From Candidatus Curtissbacteria bacterium RIFCSPLOWO2_02_FULL_40_11 (GTDB lineage Bacteria; Patescibacteriota; Microgenomatia; Curtissbacterales; GWA2-41-24): DNA of 32,993 bases. Shown here in pieces: positions 10,456 through 16,902 of this stretch; positions within the stretch are counted from its first letter, which is position 1; each line of letters opens with the position of its first letter. The stretch is taken from contig MFBV01000006.1 in assembly GCA_001776505.1 (NCBI GenBank), forward strand, positions 21,507 through 54,499, read 5' to 3'. Position numbers and translations under genes: made by a program. The notes beneath the pieces were generated by a model, which saw only the letters and a list, made by a program, of their open reading frames with translations, did no database searches and was not told the DNA's origin.

Positions 10456-11541
10456 ATGGACACAGCACAAAAAATCGAGGACCTAAAAAGTCGTTTTGAG
10501 TTAATTAAAAATAATTTCAACGTTGAAAACGAACAAAAAGAGTTGAGAGAACTTGAAGCTCAAAGTAACAAGCCTGATTTTTGGCAGAAAGACTCTCAAA
10601 AAGCAAAGTCTGTTATGAAAAAGATTTCATCAATCTCAGAAGACATTGATAAATTCGAAACGCTCAACAAAGATCTTAGTGAAATAAAAGAAATAATGAA
10701 CCTATCAAAGGAGGATTCAAGCATAGCGAAGGCCATCAATAAGGAGATCAAGAATTTAGAAAAAAATGTAGAAGAGTTCGAAATAAAAATGTTTCTAGCG
10801 GGTAAATATGATGAAAACGATGCGATTCTCTCTATTCATGCAGGTCAAGGAGGAACTGAAGCAATGGATTGGGTCGAAATGCTCTCTCGTATGTATCAAA
10901 AATATTTTTCATCTCAAGACTGGGATTTTGAAGTCATAAATGAAGATCCTGGTGAAGAAGCGGGTTTTAAAACAGTTTCCATTAGCATTCGGGAAAGATA
11001 TTCTTATGGACTTTTAAAGAGAGAAGCAGGTGTTCACAGGTTAGTCAGACAATCTCCATTCAATGCGAATAATTTAAGACAAACCTCATTTGCTTTAGTC
11101 GAGGTAACGCCAGAAACAGGAGACGAGTTAGAGATTGATTTAAAACAAGATGATATCGAGTTTGAAGCATTTCGCTCAAGTGGGCACGGTGGCCAGAACG
11201 TAAACAAAGTTTCAACCGCAGTGCGTCTAAAGCACAAGCCTACGGGTATAACAGTTACCTCACAAACGCAGCGTCAGCAGGCTCAAAACAAAGACAATGC
11301 CTTAAAACTTCTAAAAGCTAAACTTTGGGTTCTATATCAAAAGGAGCAAGAGGAGAAAAAAGCGGAAATTAAGGGGTCTCATATTATGCCGGGGTGGGGT
11401 AATCAAATACGTTCCTATGTACTTCATCCCTACAAAATGGTTAAAGATCTGCGCACAAACTATGAAACCTCAAATGCTCAAGCTGTATTAGATGGAGATT
11501 TAGAAGAGTTTATAAAACAAGAAATTACCCTCAAGTCTTAA
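10456..11541 (+). CDS. prfB: Peptide chain release factor 2
   Basis: GGQ motif in FRSSGHGGQNVNKVSTAVRLKH; QQAQNKDNALKLLKAKL; RF-2-like N-terminus. Read as one uninterrupted frame. Confidence 0.95.
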   Translation: MDTAQKIEDLKSRFELIKNNFNVENEQKELRELEAQSNKPDFWQKDSQKAKSVMKKISSISEDIDKFETLNKDLSEIKEIMNLSKEDSSIAKAINKEIKNLEKNVEEFEIKMFLAGKYDENDAILSIHAGQGGTEAMDWVEMLSRMYQKYFSSQDWDFEVINEDPGEEAGFKTVSISIRERYSYGLLKREAGVHRLVRQSPFNANNLRQTSFALVEVTPETGDELEIDLKQDDIEFEAFRSSGHGGQNVNKVSTAVRLKHKPTGITVTSQTQRQQAQNKDNALKLLKAKLWVLYQKEQEEKKAEIKGSHIMPGWGNQIRSYVLHPYKMVKDLRTNYETSNAQAVLDGDLEEFIKQEITLKS

Positions 11542-11563
11542 ATCTTGTTAAATCAAGTTTGGT

Positions 11564-11760
11564 TGATATATATCAGGAAGCTTGTTTGAACAGGCTTAGC
11601 TGATATATATCAGCCTTCAGTAAAACTGAATCTGATATATCAGAGGAGCGCTATTAACTACTTTGCAGTTAAAGCGACCTGCTGATATGTCTTCCTTTAT
11701 TCTGAAATAAAGCGACATATATCAGGAAGCTTGTTTGAACAAGCTTAGCTGATATATAAT
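11564..11760. repeat. Array of six TGATATATATCA-type palindromes separated by five self-complementary spacers
   Basis: Palindrome-like units at 11564-11576, 11601-11613, 11632-11643, 11682-11691, 11714-11725 and 11749-11760 (degenerate). Each intervening segment contains its own inverted repeat. 11568-11609 and 11717-11758 are 42-nt direct repeats with 1 mismatch. Confidence 0.9.
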
Positions 11761-11772
11761 AACTTCACGCTT

Positions 11773-12273
11773 ATGGAAGCTCAAAGTTCAAATCAAAATC
11801 AAACACAGCAACAATCCAAACCACAAACATCAGGCTCTGGGACGCAACCTATAGAACCAATAAAATCAGGCAAGCCACTAGCAAAATTACTGCCATTTCT
11901 CCTTTTTATCGTCATAATCGGAGCCGGAATTGTAACCGGACTTGTTTTATCATCAATAAACAAAGCCCAATCTCAATCAGGAGATATCTTGTCAGAGGAA
12001 GACCTTAGCCCCGAAATTAAACAAAACTTTTCCCAGACATTTAAAGATGAAGCTGAGGGCATAGTTGAAAAAAACGAAGATTTCGACGAATATGCTCAGG
12101 GTCCTTGGAAACTTATTCGCAGTGGGGGAGAAAGTCAAGCCGCGTACCTAACTTCTTCCGTAATGGATTTAGATGAATTCGTAGGTAAAAAAGTCAAAGT
12201 TTATGGTGAAACCTTCGGATCTGATCAAGTTTCATGGCTTATGGATGTCGGAAAAGTTGAAGTTATTGAATAA
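11773..12273 (+). CDS. Membrane-anchored hypothetical protein
   Basis: Q/S/T-rich N-terminus, one TM segment (LLPFLLFIVIIGAGIVTGLVL), small C-terminal domain. Confidence 0.65.
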   Translation: MEAQSSNQNQTQQQSKPQTSGSGTQPIEPIKSGKPLAKLLPFLLFIVIIGAGIVTGLVLSSINKAQSQSGDILSEEDLSPEIKQNFSQTFKDEAEGIVEKNEDFDEYAQGPWKLIRSGGESQAAYLTSSVMDLDEFVGKKVKVYGETFGSDQVSWLMDVGKVEVIE

Positions 12274-12291: not shown

Positions 12292-12978
12292 ATGATAGAA
12301 TTCCAGTCTGTTTCTAAAAAATACCCATCCGGGCAAACGGCTCTCGATGGTATCAGCCTCAAAATAGAAAGTGGCGAATTTGTATTTATAGTCGGTCTCT
12401 CCGGTGCGGGCAAGTCAACGATGATAAAAATGCTGACAAGAGAACTGTCTCCGTCAAGTGGAAAAGTTTTATTTAATAATGAGGACATCAATGCATTTAA
12501 AAAGAGTAGAATCCCACTCCTTCGGCGAAGAATCGGCACCGTATTTCAGGATTTCAAATTGCTACTAACAAGGACCGTTTTTGAAAATGTTGCAGTTCCC
12601 TTAGAAGTGCTTTCTAAAAGCGAGGCCGAAATAGAAAAAGAAGTTTCAAGCGCTCTGGAAAAAGTCGGCATACTTGATAAAGCCAACAGTTTCCCCTCAC
12701 AACTTGCGGGTGGAGAAGTCCAGAGAACAGCTATTGCAAGAGCTATAATTTCAAAACCAGAAGTTATACTTGCTGATGAGCCTACAGGAGATCTAGATCC
12801 AAAAAATTCTTTATCCGTTGTCGGACTCCTTGAAAAGATTAACAAAGAAGATAAAACAACTATTATTATGGCAACGCATAATTCTCAAATTGTGAACCAT
12901 TTCAAAAAAAGGGTAGTAGTCTTAGAAAAAGGTAAAATGGTAAAGGATCAAAAAGAAGGTCGATATGAAGCAGGCTAA
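12292..12978 (+). CDS. ftsE: Cell division ATP-binding protein FtsE
   Basis: Walker A GLSGAGKST, signature LAGGEVQRTAIARAI, Walker B VILADEPTGDLD; followed by ftsX. Confidence 0.95.
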   Translation: MIEFQSVSKKYPSGQTALDGISLKIESGEFVFIVGLSGAGKSTMIKMLTRELSPSSGKVLFNNEDINAFKKSRIPLLRRRIGTVFQDFKLLLTRTVFENVAVPLEVLSKSEAEIEKEVSSALEKVGILDKANSFPSQLAGGEVQRTAIARAIISKPEVILADEPTGDLDPKNSLSVVGLLEKINKEDKTTIIMATHNSQIVNHFKKRVVVLEKGKMVKDQKEGRYEAG

Positions 12979-13837
12979 AGATACCCTAAAACAGATCCGC
13001 AGAAGCCCTTATCAGGCAATCGCAGCAGCGCTTGCAATGTCTCTGACATTTTTCGTAGCCTCTCTTTTTATTATTTTGATATTCGGTGGCCAACTTGTGT
13101 TGCTGTATCTTGAACAAAGACCACAAGCTATAGCGTTCTTCAGTGATGAAACCAAGGAATCCAGAATTTTGGAAATTGCCAAGGAAATAGAGGCAACCGG
13201 GCTTTCAAAAGAAATCAAATATGTTTCAAAAGAAGAAGCCTACGAAATATATCGCGAACGATTTAAAGATGACCCTCTGCTACTCGAATCAGTAACTGCT
13301 GACTTCTTGCCGGCTCATTTAGAGGTTTCGGCTCAAAAGGTGGATGATATTAAGATTTTGACAGAGGGTTTTCGCCAACGAGAAGAAGTGGAAAGCATAG
13401 TTGCACCTGAAGACGTTGTTGGGAAGTTGGCGAACGTCACTCGTACCGTTAGGACAGCAGGCCTTATTTTCGTTTCAGTTCTAATTGCAATTTCTTTTTT
13501 GATAATAATTATGGTTGTGGGTATGCGAATAGCCCTAAGACGAGACGAAATTTCGATAATGAATTTGGTAGGAGCAACTAAATGGTATATAGCCAGACCA
13601 TTTTTTATAGAGGGTGCTCTCTACGGTATTATTGGTGCAAGCATCGCCACGTTTTTAGTTTACTCGCTTCTGCTTTTTTACTCACCGCAAATTCAAAATT
13701 TCTTAGGTCCGATCCAAATCTTCCCAATTAGTCCCCTGTTTTTCCTCTATCTCTGGCTTGCTCAAGTCTTTGCGGCCATAACTGTGGGTGTTTTAGGAGC
13801 AGCGATTGCCCTTTACAGATACCTTAGAGTTAAATGA
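12965..13837 (+). CDS. ftsX: Cell division permease-like protein FtsX
   Basis: FtsX topology with extracellular loop (AIAFFSDETKESRILEIAKEIEATG) and C-terminal TMs with MNLVGATKWYIARPFFIEGALYGIIGA; overlaps ftsE by 14 nt. Confidence 0.93.
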   Translation: MKQAKDTLKQIRRSPYQAIAAALAMSLTFFVASLFIILIFGGQLVLLYLEQRPQAIAFFSDETKESRILEIAKEIEATGLSKEIKYVSKEEAYEIYRERFKDDPLLLESVTADFLPAHLEVSAQKVDDIKILTEGFRQREEVESIVAPEDVVGKLANVTRTVRTAGLIFVSVLIAISFLIIIMVVGMRIALRRDEISIMNLVGATKWYIARPFFIEGALYGIIGASIATFLVYSLLLFYSPQIQNFLGPIQIFPISPLFFLYLWLAQVFAAITVGVLGAAIALYRYLRVK

Positions 13838-15030
13838 AGAGACTCACAATATTTTTATTACTCCCTCTATCTCTGCTTATTTTTTCTACGACAAGAATCC
13901 ACGGCGTTAGCTTAGAGGAGTGCGAAAATGATTCTTCCGCAAACATCAATGAATGTATCGATTTATTCTCGCAAAAAATAGATGAACTGGGGAATCAGAA
14001 AAATACTCTTGCTTCTCAAATTGCCCAATATGATACTCAGATCAAAGTCACTCAATTAAAAATTTCCGAAGCCACCAACACAATTGAGCAACTCGAAAAA
14101 GAAATTGGCGTATTAGGTTTTCGCATAGGTTACGTTTCCGAAAGTATAGGCAGATTAGAAGAACTTGTTAAAAAGCGAATAGTTGCCACCTATCAGCAAA
14201 GTTTTACCTCAAACTTGGAATTAATTTTAGCATCAGACGACTTTGCGGATGTAATGCTCAGACTTCAGTATCTTAAACAGGTTCAGGAAAACGACAAAAA
14301 AGTTTTAGCTTCACTACAGGAAACGCGTTCAAATTATGCTAATCAAAAAGACGAAAGAGAAGAAAAACAAGCAGCGATAGAAGAAAATAAAAATAAACTT
14401 GAAATACTGGGTGCGTCTTTAGATGCCCAAAGAAAAGATAAAGCGGCATTTTTAGCCGTTACTAAAAACGATGAGAGTAGGTATCAACAACTACTTTCTC
14501 AAGCAAGGGCAGAGTTTGAAGCTATTCAGGCTATTATTGCCGGTGGCGGTGTTGAAACGCAAGTGGGTCAAGTAAATCAAGGTCAGAAGATCGCTACCAT
14601 TATTCAGGGGGCATCCTGTAATTCGGGCGGTACTCATATTCACTTTACTGTAAGAAGGCCAGGGGGAGTAACAGACAATCCGTTTAAGTATTTGAAGGCT
14701 GGCGTAAGTTATGAAGAAAATTCCGGAGGTGATCCTTTTAACCCATCTGGCGACTGGGAGTGGCCAATAAGCCCTCCTATAAAATTCAATCAAGGGTATG
14801 GGGTCACTTGGGCTGTGCAGAACGACCCGTTTATCAAACAAATTTACAGCTTTCATAATGGTATAGATATCAACAGCTTATCCTCCTCGGAGGTAAAAGC
14901 TGTCCAAAACGGAACTCTTTACCGCGGAACCTACTCTGGTCTAAGTGGGTGCGCCTTGCGATATGTTAGAGTCGATCATGAAAGTTCGGATCTAGATACC
15001 CTTTACTTACACGTAAACTATTTACTGTAA
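13834..15030 (+). CDS. Secreted coiled-coil protein with M23/LytM-like peptidase domain in permuted motif order
   Basis: Signal peptide, long coiled coil as in EnvC/CwlO-type FtsEX partners, then GGTHIHFTV followed by FHNGIDI...VKAVQNGTLYRG...YVRVDHE...TLYLHV; ATGA overlap with ftsX. Confidence 0.85.
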   Translation: MKRLTIFLLLPLSLLIFSTTRIHGVSLEECENDSSANINECIDLFSQKIDELGNQKNTLASQIAQYDTQIKVTQLKISEATNTIEQLEKEIGVLGFRIGYVSESIGRLEELVKKRIVATYQQSFTSNLELILASDDFADVMLRLQYLKQVQENDKKVLASLQETRSNYANQKDEREEKQAAIEENKNKLEILGASLDAQRKDKAAFLAVTKNDESRYQQLLSQARAEFEAIQAIIAGGGVETQVGQVNQGQKIATIIQGASCNSGGTHIHFTVRRPGGVTDNPFKYLKAGVSYEENSGGDPFNPSGDWEWPISPPIKFNQGYGVTWAVQNDPFIKQIYSFHNGIDINSLSSSEVKAVQNGTLYRGTYSGLSGCALRYVRVDHESSDLDTLYLHVNYLL

Positions 15031-15213: not shown

Positions 15214-15642
15214 TTACTTTGCTAGTGCCCTCAACAGTTCTCCTGGACTTACTACCACAAAAGGAAGTACAGCCTCTTTAACCTTTTTAGTTAAAAAATG
15301 TTTCCTGTCAAGAGTAACAAGGAAATCTACTTTTGTTTTTCTTGCTCCTTCAAGAACATGGATATCTTTTTTGTCAATTATCTTTGAATAATGTGATTCT
15401 GCACTGCGCTTATAAATGGTGACTATCTGTGGATTTAAGTCCACCATCAATTCGTAAAAACGAAGGCGCACGGAAATAGGTTCTTTTTCTCGAACGTTAC
15501 GTTCCGCTTCACGCAAGACTTGTCTTGTCGCATACAAAGTGACCTTTTTCTTCTTAATCAGTTCGCAAACAATACTAGAGCCTCCGGACACTGAACGAGC
15601 AGCAGAAAAGTAAACGTTAGCATCTAGGAAAACACGCATCAC
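15214..15642 (-). CDS. PIN-domain toxin (putative ribonuclease)
   Basis: MRVFLDANVYFSA... ILE-type spacing to DIHVLEGARKTKVDFLVTLDRKHF acidic residues; adjacent to a Phd/YefM-like antitoxin. Confidence 0.82.
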   Translation of the reverse strand: MMRVFLDANVYFSAARSVSGGSSIVCELIKKKKVTLYATRQVLREAERNVREKEPISVRLRFYELMVDLNPQIVTIYKRSAESHYSKIIDKKDIHVLEGARKTKVDFLVTLDRKHFLTKKVKEAVLPFVVVSPGELLRALAK

Positions 15643-15906
15643 TTACGAGGCTAGGAGTTTATTAGCAATTGCTTGCTCTTTAGTACTTAAACGGTCTTCT
15701 TTTTCGAACTGGCGAATACGTTTATTGGTATAGAGCTCGATGTCGCTATCGTCGCCAATGAAAAGCTGATAATCCTCAAGCGGCACCAGGACAGCAACTG
15801 CCTTATCTTTACGTTTGATTAAAAAACGATCTTTATTATAAATAGACCTGTCGATGACTTGGCCTATCTTCTTTCTCAGATCTAGCATTGTAATTGCCTG
15901 TAACAT
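15643..15906 (-). CDS. Phd/YefM-like antitoxin
   Basis: MLQAITMLDLRKKIGQVIDRSIYNKDRFLIKRKDKAVAVLVPLEDYQLF. ATG at 15906 preferred over the track's TTG at 15918 because a GGTGG SD-like element lies just upstream. Confidence 0.82.
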   Translation of the reverse strand: MLQAITMLDLRKKIGQVIDRSIYNKDRFLIKRKDKAVAVLVPLEDYQLFIGDDSDIELYTNKRIRQFEKEDRLSTKEQAIANKLLAS

Positions 15907-15929
15907 GTCGTCCACCAACTATCACAATT

Positions 15930-15974: not shown

Positions 15975-16003
15975 TTGACAAATTCCAGCTAAGGCATTAT
16001 TTT
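15975..16003 (+). promoter_or_regulatory. Promoter of the lamin-tail protein gene
   Basis: TTGACA (15975-15980), 17 nt, TATTTT (15998-16003); ATG at 16015. Confidence 0.6.
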
Positions 16004-16014
16004 TGATTGTCACT

Positions 16015-16902
16015 ATGGCAAAATTACTTTGCCTGCCCCTTATTATTTTTATATTCTTAATTTTTCCTAAAGAGATACACTCTGACTCCAATATAGTTAT
16101 CAACGAAATAATGTACGATTTAGAGGAATCTGATGAAAAGAGAGAATGGATAGAGTTATTTAATTTAGGTACGGAAGCTATAGATTTAACGTCTTGGCGT
16201 TTCGAGGAAAATGGTGTCCAGCATACCTTGATACTAAAGCAAGGAGACGCTTTTGTTGCGGGAGGCCGGTTTGCTCTGATAGTAGACGATTATGATACGT
16301 TTTTGCAGGATAACCACGGTTTTACTGGCACGGTTTTCGACAGTTCTTTCTCGCTTTCAAACAAAGGGGAAAATTTAAAAATAAGAAACTCCCGCGACGG
16401 AAATATAATTGACGCGATAACCTATTCTTCTGATTTGGGTGCTTCCGGAGATGGAAACTCTCTGCAAAGGAAGTCTGACGGGAGCTGGGTAGCTGCGGCT
16501 CCCACACCGGGTAACCAGAATTCTTCCAAGCCATTGCCATCACCATCGCCGACACCTTCTTCAACATCCAGTAGCAGCAATAAATCATCTTCTACTAAAT
16601 CCACTTCTTCAACTTCAACAAAAGCTTCCCCTAAAGAATCGCCTTCGGCAGCAAAATCAAGTCCGTCAATTTCCAGAACTTTAGGAGAAAAAAATATATC
16701 AGTCACAAAGCTATTACCATCTAGCACGCCCTCAGCATCGCCCAAATCACAGGATGAAGCACCACCATCGACCAAAGTAGCCGGTTTTCTAACAGGATTT
16801 GGCGCGTTGTTAGTCGGAGCATCACTGTTCTTCTACTTCTGGTACTATAAAATTAAAAACAAGGCCAAAGACCCCATTGAAGAGAAAAATAGTGACAGTT
16901 AA
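16015..16902 (+). CDS. Secreted lamin-tail-domain (LTD) protein with Ser/Pro-rich stalk and C-terminal TM anchor
   Basis: Signal peptide; IVINEIMYDLEESDEKREWIELFNLGTEAIDLTSWRFEE (LTD signature); PSPSPTPSSTSSSSNKSS linker; TM near the C-terminus. ATG 16015 preferred over TTG 16003. Confidence 0.85.
   Translation: MAKLLCLPLIIFIFLIFPKEIHSDSNIVINEIMYDLEESDEKREWIELFNLGTEAIDLTSWRFEENGVQHTLILKQGDAFVAGGRFALIVDDYDTFLQDNHGFTGTVFDSSFSLSNKGENLKIRNSRDGNIIDAITYSSDLGASGDGNSLQRKSDGSWVAAAPTPGNQNSSKPLPSPSPTPSSTSSSSNKSSSTKSTSSTSTKASPKESPSAAKSSPSISRTLGEKNISVTKLLPSSTPSASPKSQDEAPPSTKVAGFLTGFGALLVGASLFFYFWYYKIKNKAKDPIEEKNSDS

Follow-up and report, generated by a model that had tools for sequence, protein, structure and literature searches.

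A hairpin array in the genome of Candidatus Curtissbacteria bacterium RIFCSPLOWO2_02_FULL_40_11, located at 11561-11763 of the window (the whole 32,993-nucleotide stretch analyzed here), probably combines five modules belonging to a family of modular, hairpin-forming interspersed repeats that are non-autonomous, mobile, associated with -10 boxes, and capable of nesting. On this reading, each module would fold into a hairpin as DNA and would rely on an enzyme supplied in trans for its movement, and the pile-up in the window would cover the promoter of the gene after prfB, which encodes a membrane protein.

Five hairpin modules tile the array

The array lies in the 231-base gap between prfB (release factor 2; 10456..11541, + strand; Pfam PF03462 and PF00472) and the first gene 3' of it, an ORF for a 166-aa membrane protein (11773..12273, +) without a Pfam match. 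Five hairpin modules tile it almost without gaps. HP4a (11570..11606, - strand; R1 match at 11563-11615, 26.6 bits) is of the HP1 type, reversed, and reads ATATCAG-G-AAGCTTG..CAGGCTT-AG-CTGATAT; HP1 (11607..11638, +; R1 match on the - strand at 11598-11643, 36 bits) reads ATATCAG-CC-TTCAG..CTGAA-T-CTGATAT; HP3 (11637..11688, +; R2 match, 66.7 bits) runs from ATATCAGAGGAGC through a stem with a bulged A to GCGACCTGCTGATAT; HP2 (11687..11718, +; R1 match at 11682-11764, 76.1 bits, and pattern search) reads ATGTC-TTC-CTTTATT..AATAAAG-C-GACAT; and HP4b (11719..11755, -; R1 matches and folding), again of the reversed HP1 type, adjoins the -10 box of the membrane-protein gene. All have AT-rich terminal inverted repeats, ATATCAG/CTGATAT (~7 bp) in HP1, HP3, and HP4 and ATGTC/GACAT in HP2, and an asymmetric internal loop: CC/T in HP1, AG/A in HP3, TTC/C in HP2, and G/AG in HP4. 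Because these asymmetric loops are conserved and HP3 additionally has its bulged A, the modules are not simple palindromes.

All motifs quoted in an earlier note on this DNA are present in the window sequence, including its five inverted-repeat spacers (the first, AAGCTTG..CAGGCTT, with one imperfect pair) and its copies of TGATATATATCA, which are exact at 11564-11575 and 11601-11612 and degenerate at 11633, 11683, 11713, and 11750. The note took TGATATATATCA for the repeat unit; the units are instead the hairpins, and TGATATATATCA is mainly the joint formed by the terminal repeats of two modules (CTGATAT + ATATCAG). Its question of whether copies occur only here or genome-wide has a split answer, with exact TGATATATATCA restricted to this array within the host genome and the modules dispersed. 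The predicted folding into a string of hairpins was borne out: the RNA fold of 11541-11772 reached -87.8 kcal/mol, compared with -46.9 +/- 4.4 for dinucleotide shuffles (z = -9.4), and RNA and DNA folding parameters gave nearly identical hairpin strings over the prfB gap. We also agree that the CRISPR-like geometry does not reflect a CRISPR array, as Tandem Repeats Finder reported no array in the window and the spacers are hairpins, two of them near-identical.

Farther downstream lie an ABC ATPase gene (12292..12978, +; PF00005), an FtsX-like permease gene (12965-13837), and a gene for a coiled-coil peptidase-like protein (13834-15030); from their context, the first two would be FtsE-like and FtsX-like. 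On the - strand, a PIN-domain protein (15214-15642) beside a Phd/YefM-like antitoxin (15643-15918) likely forms a type II toxin-antitoxin pair. A gene at 16003-16902 encodes a protein that looks secreted, with a lamin tail domain (PF00932) and a C-terminal part rich in Ser and Pro.

The modules are dispersed in one family and differ between orthologous sites

A blastn search with the prfB gap found matches in 10 of 36 genomes, all from one family. Across 374 genomes of the class, the HP3 pattern occurred in 12 of the 15 family genomes and in 4 others, and a reversed control pattern matched none of the 374; among the 4, the G312 match (L102), which has no left terminal repeat, probably arose by chance. 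Copy numbers rest on covariance-model and pattern searches: the HP3 covariance model matched 157 times in 14 of the 15 family genomes, with 17 copies in this genome, 28 in G002, and 32 in G007, and 10 genomes together hold 13 strong HP2-HP1 composites. Scanning 85,462 GTDB species genomes with the HP3 pattern returned 50 stretches, the credible ones in Candidatus Curtissbacteria, four Daviesbacteria, and a few further MAGs (copies coincide with G003 and G014); by inspection, the Dyadobacter and Poseidoniales matches are chance. Eight IMG/VR pattern matches, considered as possible viral carriers, lacked the terminal repeats and the stem and were likewise judged to be chance. We found no earlier paper on palindromic repeats of Curtissbacteria in the open-licence literature.

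Modules combine variably, with HP3 alone, HP1-HP3, HP1-HP2-HP3, and the five-module array at prfB all represented. The apex of HP3 is often a palindrome, CCTGAGC..GTCGAAGG (e.g., L006, L016, and L170), which also stands alone in family genomes. A further hairpin type, TATAATTT-CTCG..CGAG-AAATTATAAT, follows TATAAT at the HP3 end at L142, L153, L174, L295, L298, L299, and L300, often ending in another TATAAT or in ATTATG near a gene start.

The congeneric genomes G003 and G014 share genes at ~80% DNA identity and carry elements at non-orthologous sites that are 92-94% identical. At one orthologous site, G014 carries several palindromes, HP3 among them, and G003 a single small hairpin preceding TATAATTATGG; at a second, HP3 is present in G003 and absent from G014; at a third, both have HP3, and only in G003 does its loop contain a palindrome, CCCCGTCAGACGGGG, between two TTTCA. 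The first two sites (L327 versus G003; L189 versus L349) thereby show empty orthologous positions of the kind looked for in MITEs. The polarity of the G003/G014 differences could possibly be loss instead of gain. Target-site duplication gave no general signal, with direct repeats of 8-12 nt at 3 of 61 copies (0.56 expected). An exception lies upstream of a MurJ-like gene at L178 (G010:C9, 2634-2718), where a 12-nt direct repeat, TATTAGGTCAAT, brackets an HP1-HP3 copy and, unlike the flanks of most copies, looks like a target duplication. Among the four roles offered in the earlier note, a nested palindromic mobile repeat fits best, given the dispersal, the presence/absence differences at orthologous sites, the near-identical copies at unrelated sites, and the palindrome nested in a loop.

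Module ends are enriched for TATAAT

The modules are intergenic and show an unusual association with -10 boxes. Predicted ORFs, mostly short ones, contain no more than 9 of 104 HP3 copies, whereas ORFs cover 86% of the loci. In tandem gene contexts HP3 runs against the gene direction 48 times and with it 17 times (p = 1.5e-4), and it lies between divergent genes 17 times and between convergent genes 6 times (p = 0.03). The terminal GATAT is followed by AAT, creating TATAAT, in 16 of 106 cases at each end, versus 2.1% after other GATAT, a roughly sevenfold enrichment; a link between the TATAAT end and an outward-facing gene is only suggestive (p = 0.09). Of the HP2-HP1 composites, 12 of 12 point in one direction and 11 of 12 end in TATATAAT; in 9, an ORF or tRNA begins right after the composite. 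GCTGATATAAT is likewise used by promoters of the family that have no hairpin, so the module end equals a motif of host promoters.

In the window, TATAAT at 11755..11760 (+), within a CTGATATATAATAACTTCACGC stretch whose 22 nt are identical in G006, would be the -10 box of the membrane-protein gene, and with the ATG following at 11773 the transcript would have a short leader or be leaderless. Upstream of the array, TTGTTA (11545..11550, +) is a possible original -35 element, now parted from the -10 box by the array, as judged from relatives with short gaps, whose promoter lies in this interval. The left flank GGTTGATAT (11561..11569, +) would be half of a presumed original TGATAT(A)TAAT site, a reading based on TGATATAAT/TGATATATAAT at the same position in G003, G006, G009, and G014. 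HP4b contains TTGTTT 18 nt before TATAAT, which may serve as a new -35 element with an 18-nt spacer.

Among relatives, the prfB gaps of G003, G009, and G014 are short and contain GCTGATATAAT, that of G006 shares the 22 bases of the array's right flank, and in that of G013 TATAAT comes after HP2 and an HP4-like hairpin; the remaining relatives have different hairpins or none. Because G006 has a candidate degenerate HP4-like hairpin (CAGGTGAC..GTCATCTG) and the G009 gap contains CCTGCTGATAT, which equals the HP3 end, the apparently empty prfB sites may partly be reduced ones, and because of the former HP4b may be an ancestral feature and not an insertion. The prfB site clearly differs from genome to genome, and the part retained is the -10 box.

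These features suggest how such arrays might form. TGATAT(A)TAAT-like -10 boxes and the CTGATAT/ATATCAG joints of other modules would be the preferred insertion targets, and by inserting at each other's joints the modules would make arrays grow by nesting. Inserted modules would replace the upstream promoter DNA, and the -10 box would survive beside the gene because module ends equal the host (TG)CTGATATAAT promoter motif. In its fullest form, with terminal repeats that are the host extended -10 motif and each insertion keeping or creating a promoter, the proposal is of a mobile hairpin system that targets and rebuilds -10 boxes, nests into promoter arrays, and is driven by a non-RAYT enzyme; we put this forward tentatively, as possible but on balance doubtful.

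A regulatory explanation of the promoter link would have the hairpins selected in place, with extruded cruciforms or a structure-specific protein tuning a set of genes. The fixed polarity of the HP2-HP1-TATAAT composites toward gene or tRNA starts and the TATAAT enrichment at module ends are consistent with this, as are elements at rpmF, tuf-rpsJ, htpX, and an HTH gene across genera, whose stems have changed and still pair. Upstream of rpmF in G000, G007, G008, and G009, position and orientation are kept while the stems differ, and between tuf and rpsJ the elements of G002 and G007 are retained with changed stems; such persistence could reflect retained function, and purely neutral insertion does not need the 48:17 tandem preference. 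Most HP3 copies, however, have no TATAAT at their ends, the downstream genes are unrelated in function, presence at orthologous sites is patchy, and near-identical copies occur at unrelated sites, so that we consider regulation unlikely as the whole explanation, although it can coexist with mobile repeats.

Y1 transposase genes are flanked by other palindromes

If the modules are mobile repeats, the RAYT (Y1) transposases of the genome are candidate enzymes, and the modules would then be REP/REPIN elements. Y1_Tnp genes occur in 13 of 15 family genomes, with 8 matches in this genome, and GGAG stands at the foot of the imperfect HP3 hairpin. Nevertheless, the Y1 flanks that we examined contain no GAGGAGC modules and have other palindromes in their place (AAGGCCAGGCCTTGG, AAGGGACGGTCCTTGA, and others), and G012 has no Y1 match despite its 11 HP3 copies (though G012 is only 88% complete), making mobilization by RAYT proteins improbable. 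No mobilizing enzyme was found among the Y1_Tnp genes of the family genomes, and we know of no parent transposon for the modules. The palindrome families flanking the Y1 (RAYT-like) genes at L129-L136 and L037-L056, among them CGATCCGGTATCG, apparently follow one type per gene lineage.

Stem covariation and mismatches point to DNA hairpins

Covariation, which the earlier note had expected in homologous regions, is strong in the stems of both HP2-HP1 and HP3 copies. In the HP2-HP1 alignment, 97% of cells are paired, and both sides are changed in 11 pairs and 29 cells, versus 6.6 cells after shuffling; in the HP3 alignment, 92% are paired, with 36 both-side changes versus 9.6, the information here coming from the inner stem only because the search pattern fixed the terminal parts. 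There, 52 of 61 HP3 copies have a complementary basal triplet (shuffles: mean 21, maximum 29). Mismatches at 755 stem positions in 106 HP3 copies (two of them chance matches) comprise 3 G.T and 7 A.C; RNA would favor G.U, so the missing G.T excess points to DNA hairpins, small as these mismatch counts are.

The same counts bear on a structured RNA made from this region, be it a leader, a processing element, or a small RNA. Such an RNA would account for the strong fold, the covarying stems, and the orientation bias in tandem contexts; set against it are copies in both orientations, composites located upstream of the -10 box, G.T pairs that are no more frequent than A.C, and the lack of any Rfam match above the gathering threshold in the window, which together leave this role quite improbable. 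From TGATATATATCA palindromes repeated in a row one might read several operator sites for a sequence-specific dimeric regulator, or a segregation or nucleoid site. Both are hardly credible, since exact TGATATATATCA is absent from the rest of the genome, conservation lies in the module ends and internal loops, and copies are dispersed; against the operator there is also the free exchange of stem sequences while pairing stays.

Discussion

As a family of mobile hairpin modules, these elements would be lineage-specific repeats that rearrange promoters in Patescibacteria, a group of mostly uncultured bacteria with small genomes. Their freely changing stems, with pairing kept apparently at the DNA level, would offer a good natural data set on shape recognition of DNA hairpins and on whether promoter boxes serve as insertion targets.

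Several known repeat families share part of this organization. MITEs (reviewed in PMC10969869) are likewise short and non-autonomous, with AT-rich ends and terminal inverted repeats; the modules differ from them in having terminal repeats of only ~7 bp and no general target duplication. CGTC-tagged repeats and Rickettsia palindromic elements (PMC3733652) are also palindromic families without a dedicated transposase, although the CGTC tag is absent here. REP/REPIN/BIME repeats and their RAYT proteins (PMC2817692, PMC3116915, PMC3733652) are paralleled by short imperfect palindromes in intergenic mosaic clusters, with Y1 genes in the same genomes. Unlike them, the Curtissbacteria modules have no GTAG or CGTC tag, carrying AGGAGC/GACCT at the HP3 foot and GTCTTCC/GCGAC at the HP2 foot, and do not lie beside the Y1 genes, which own other palindromes.

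BOX elements of Streptococcus pneumoniae (PMC3049150) are similarly modular, hairpin-forming, variable in size, interspersed, nearly restricted to one lineage, non-autonomous, and able to affect neighboring genes, and they too combine several module types in variable order and number. In contrast to BOX, each Curtissbacteria module forms a hairpin by itself and carries terminal repeats of its own, AT joints are where nesting occurs, and the ends form TATAAT; moreover, BOX is over-represented between convergent genes (PMC3049150), whereas divergent sites outnumber convergent ones here. The GTDB species scan gave no streptococcal match to the exact HP3 pattern, a weak hint against sequence homology to boxA, boxB, and boxC. 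On this comparison, the family is closest to BOX in its plan (PMC3049150) and to REPs in its scale (PMC3733652), and it is restricted to one candidate lineage.
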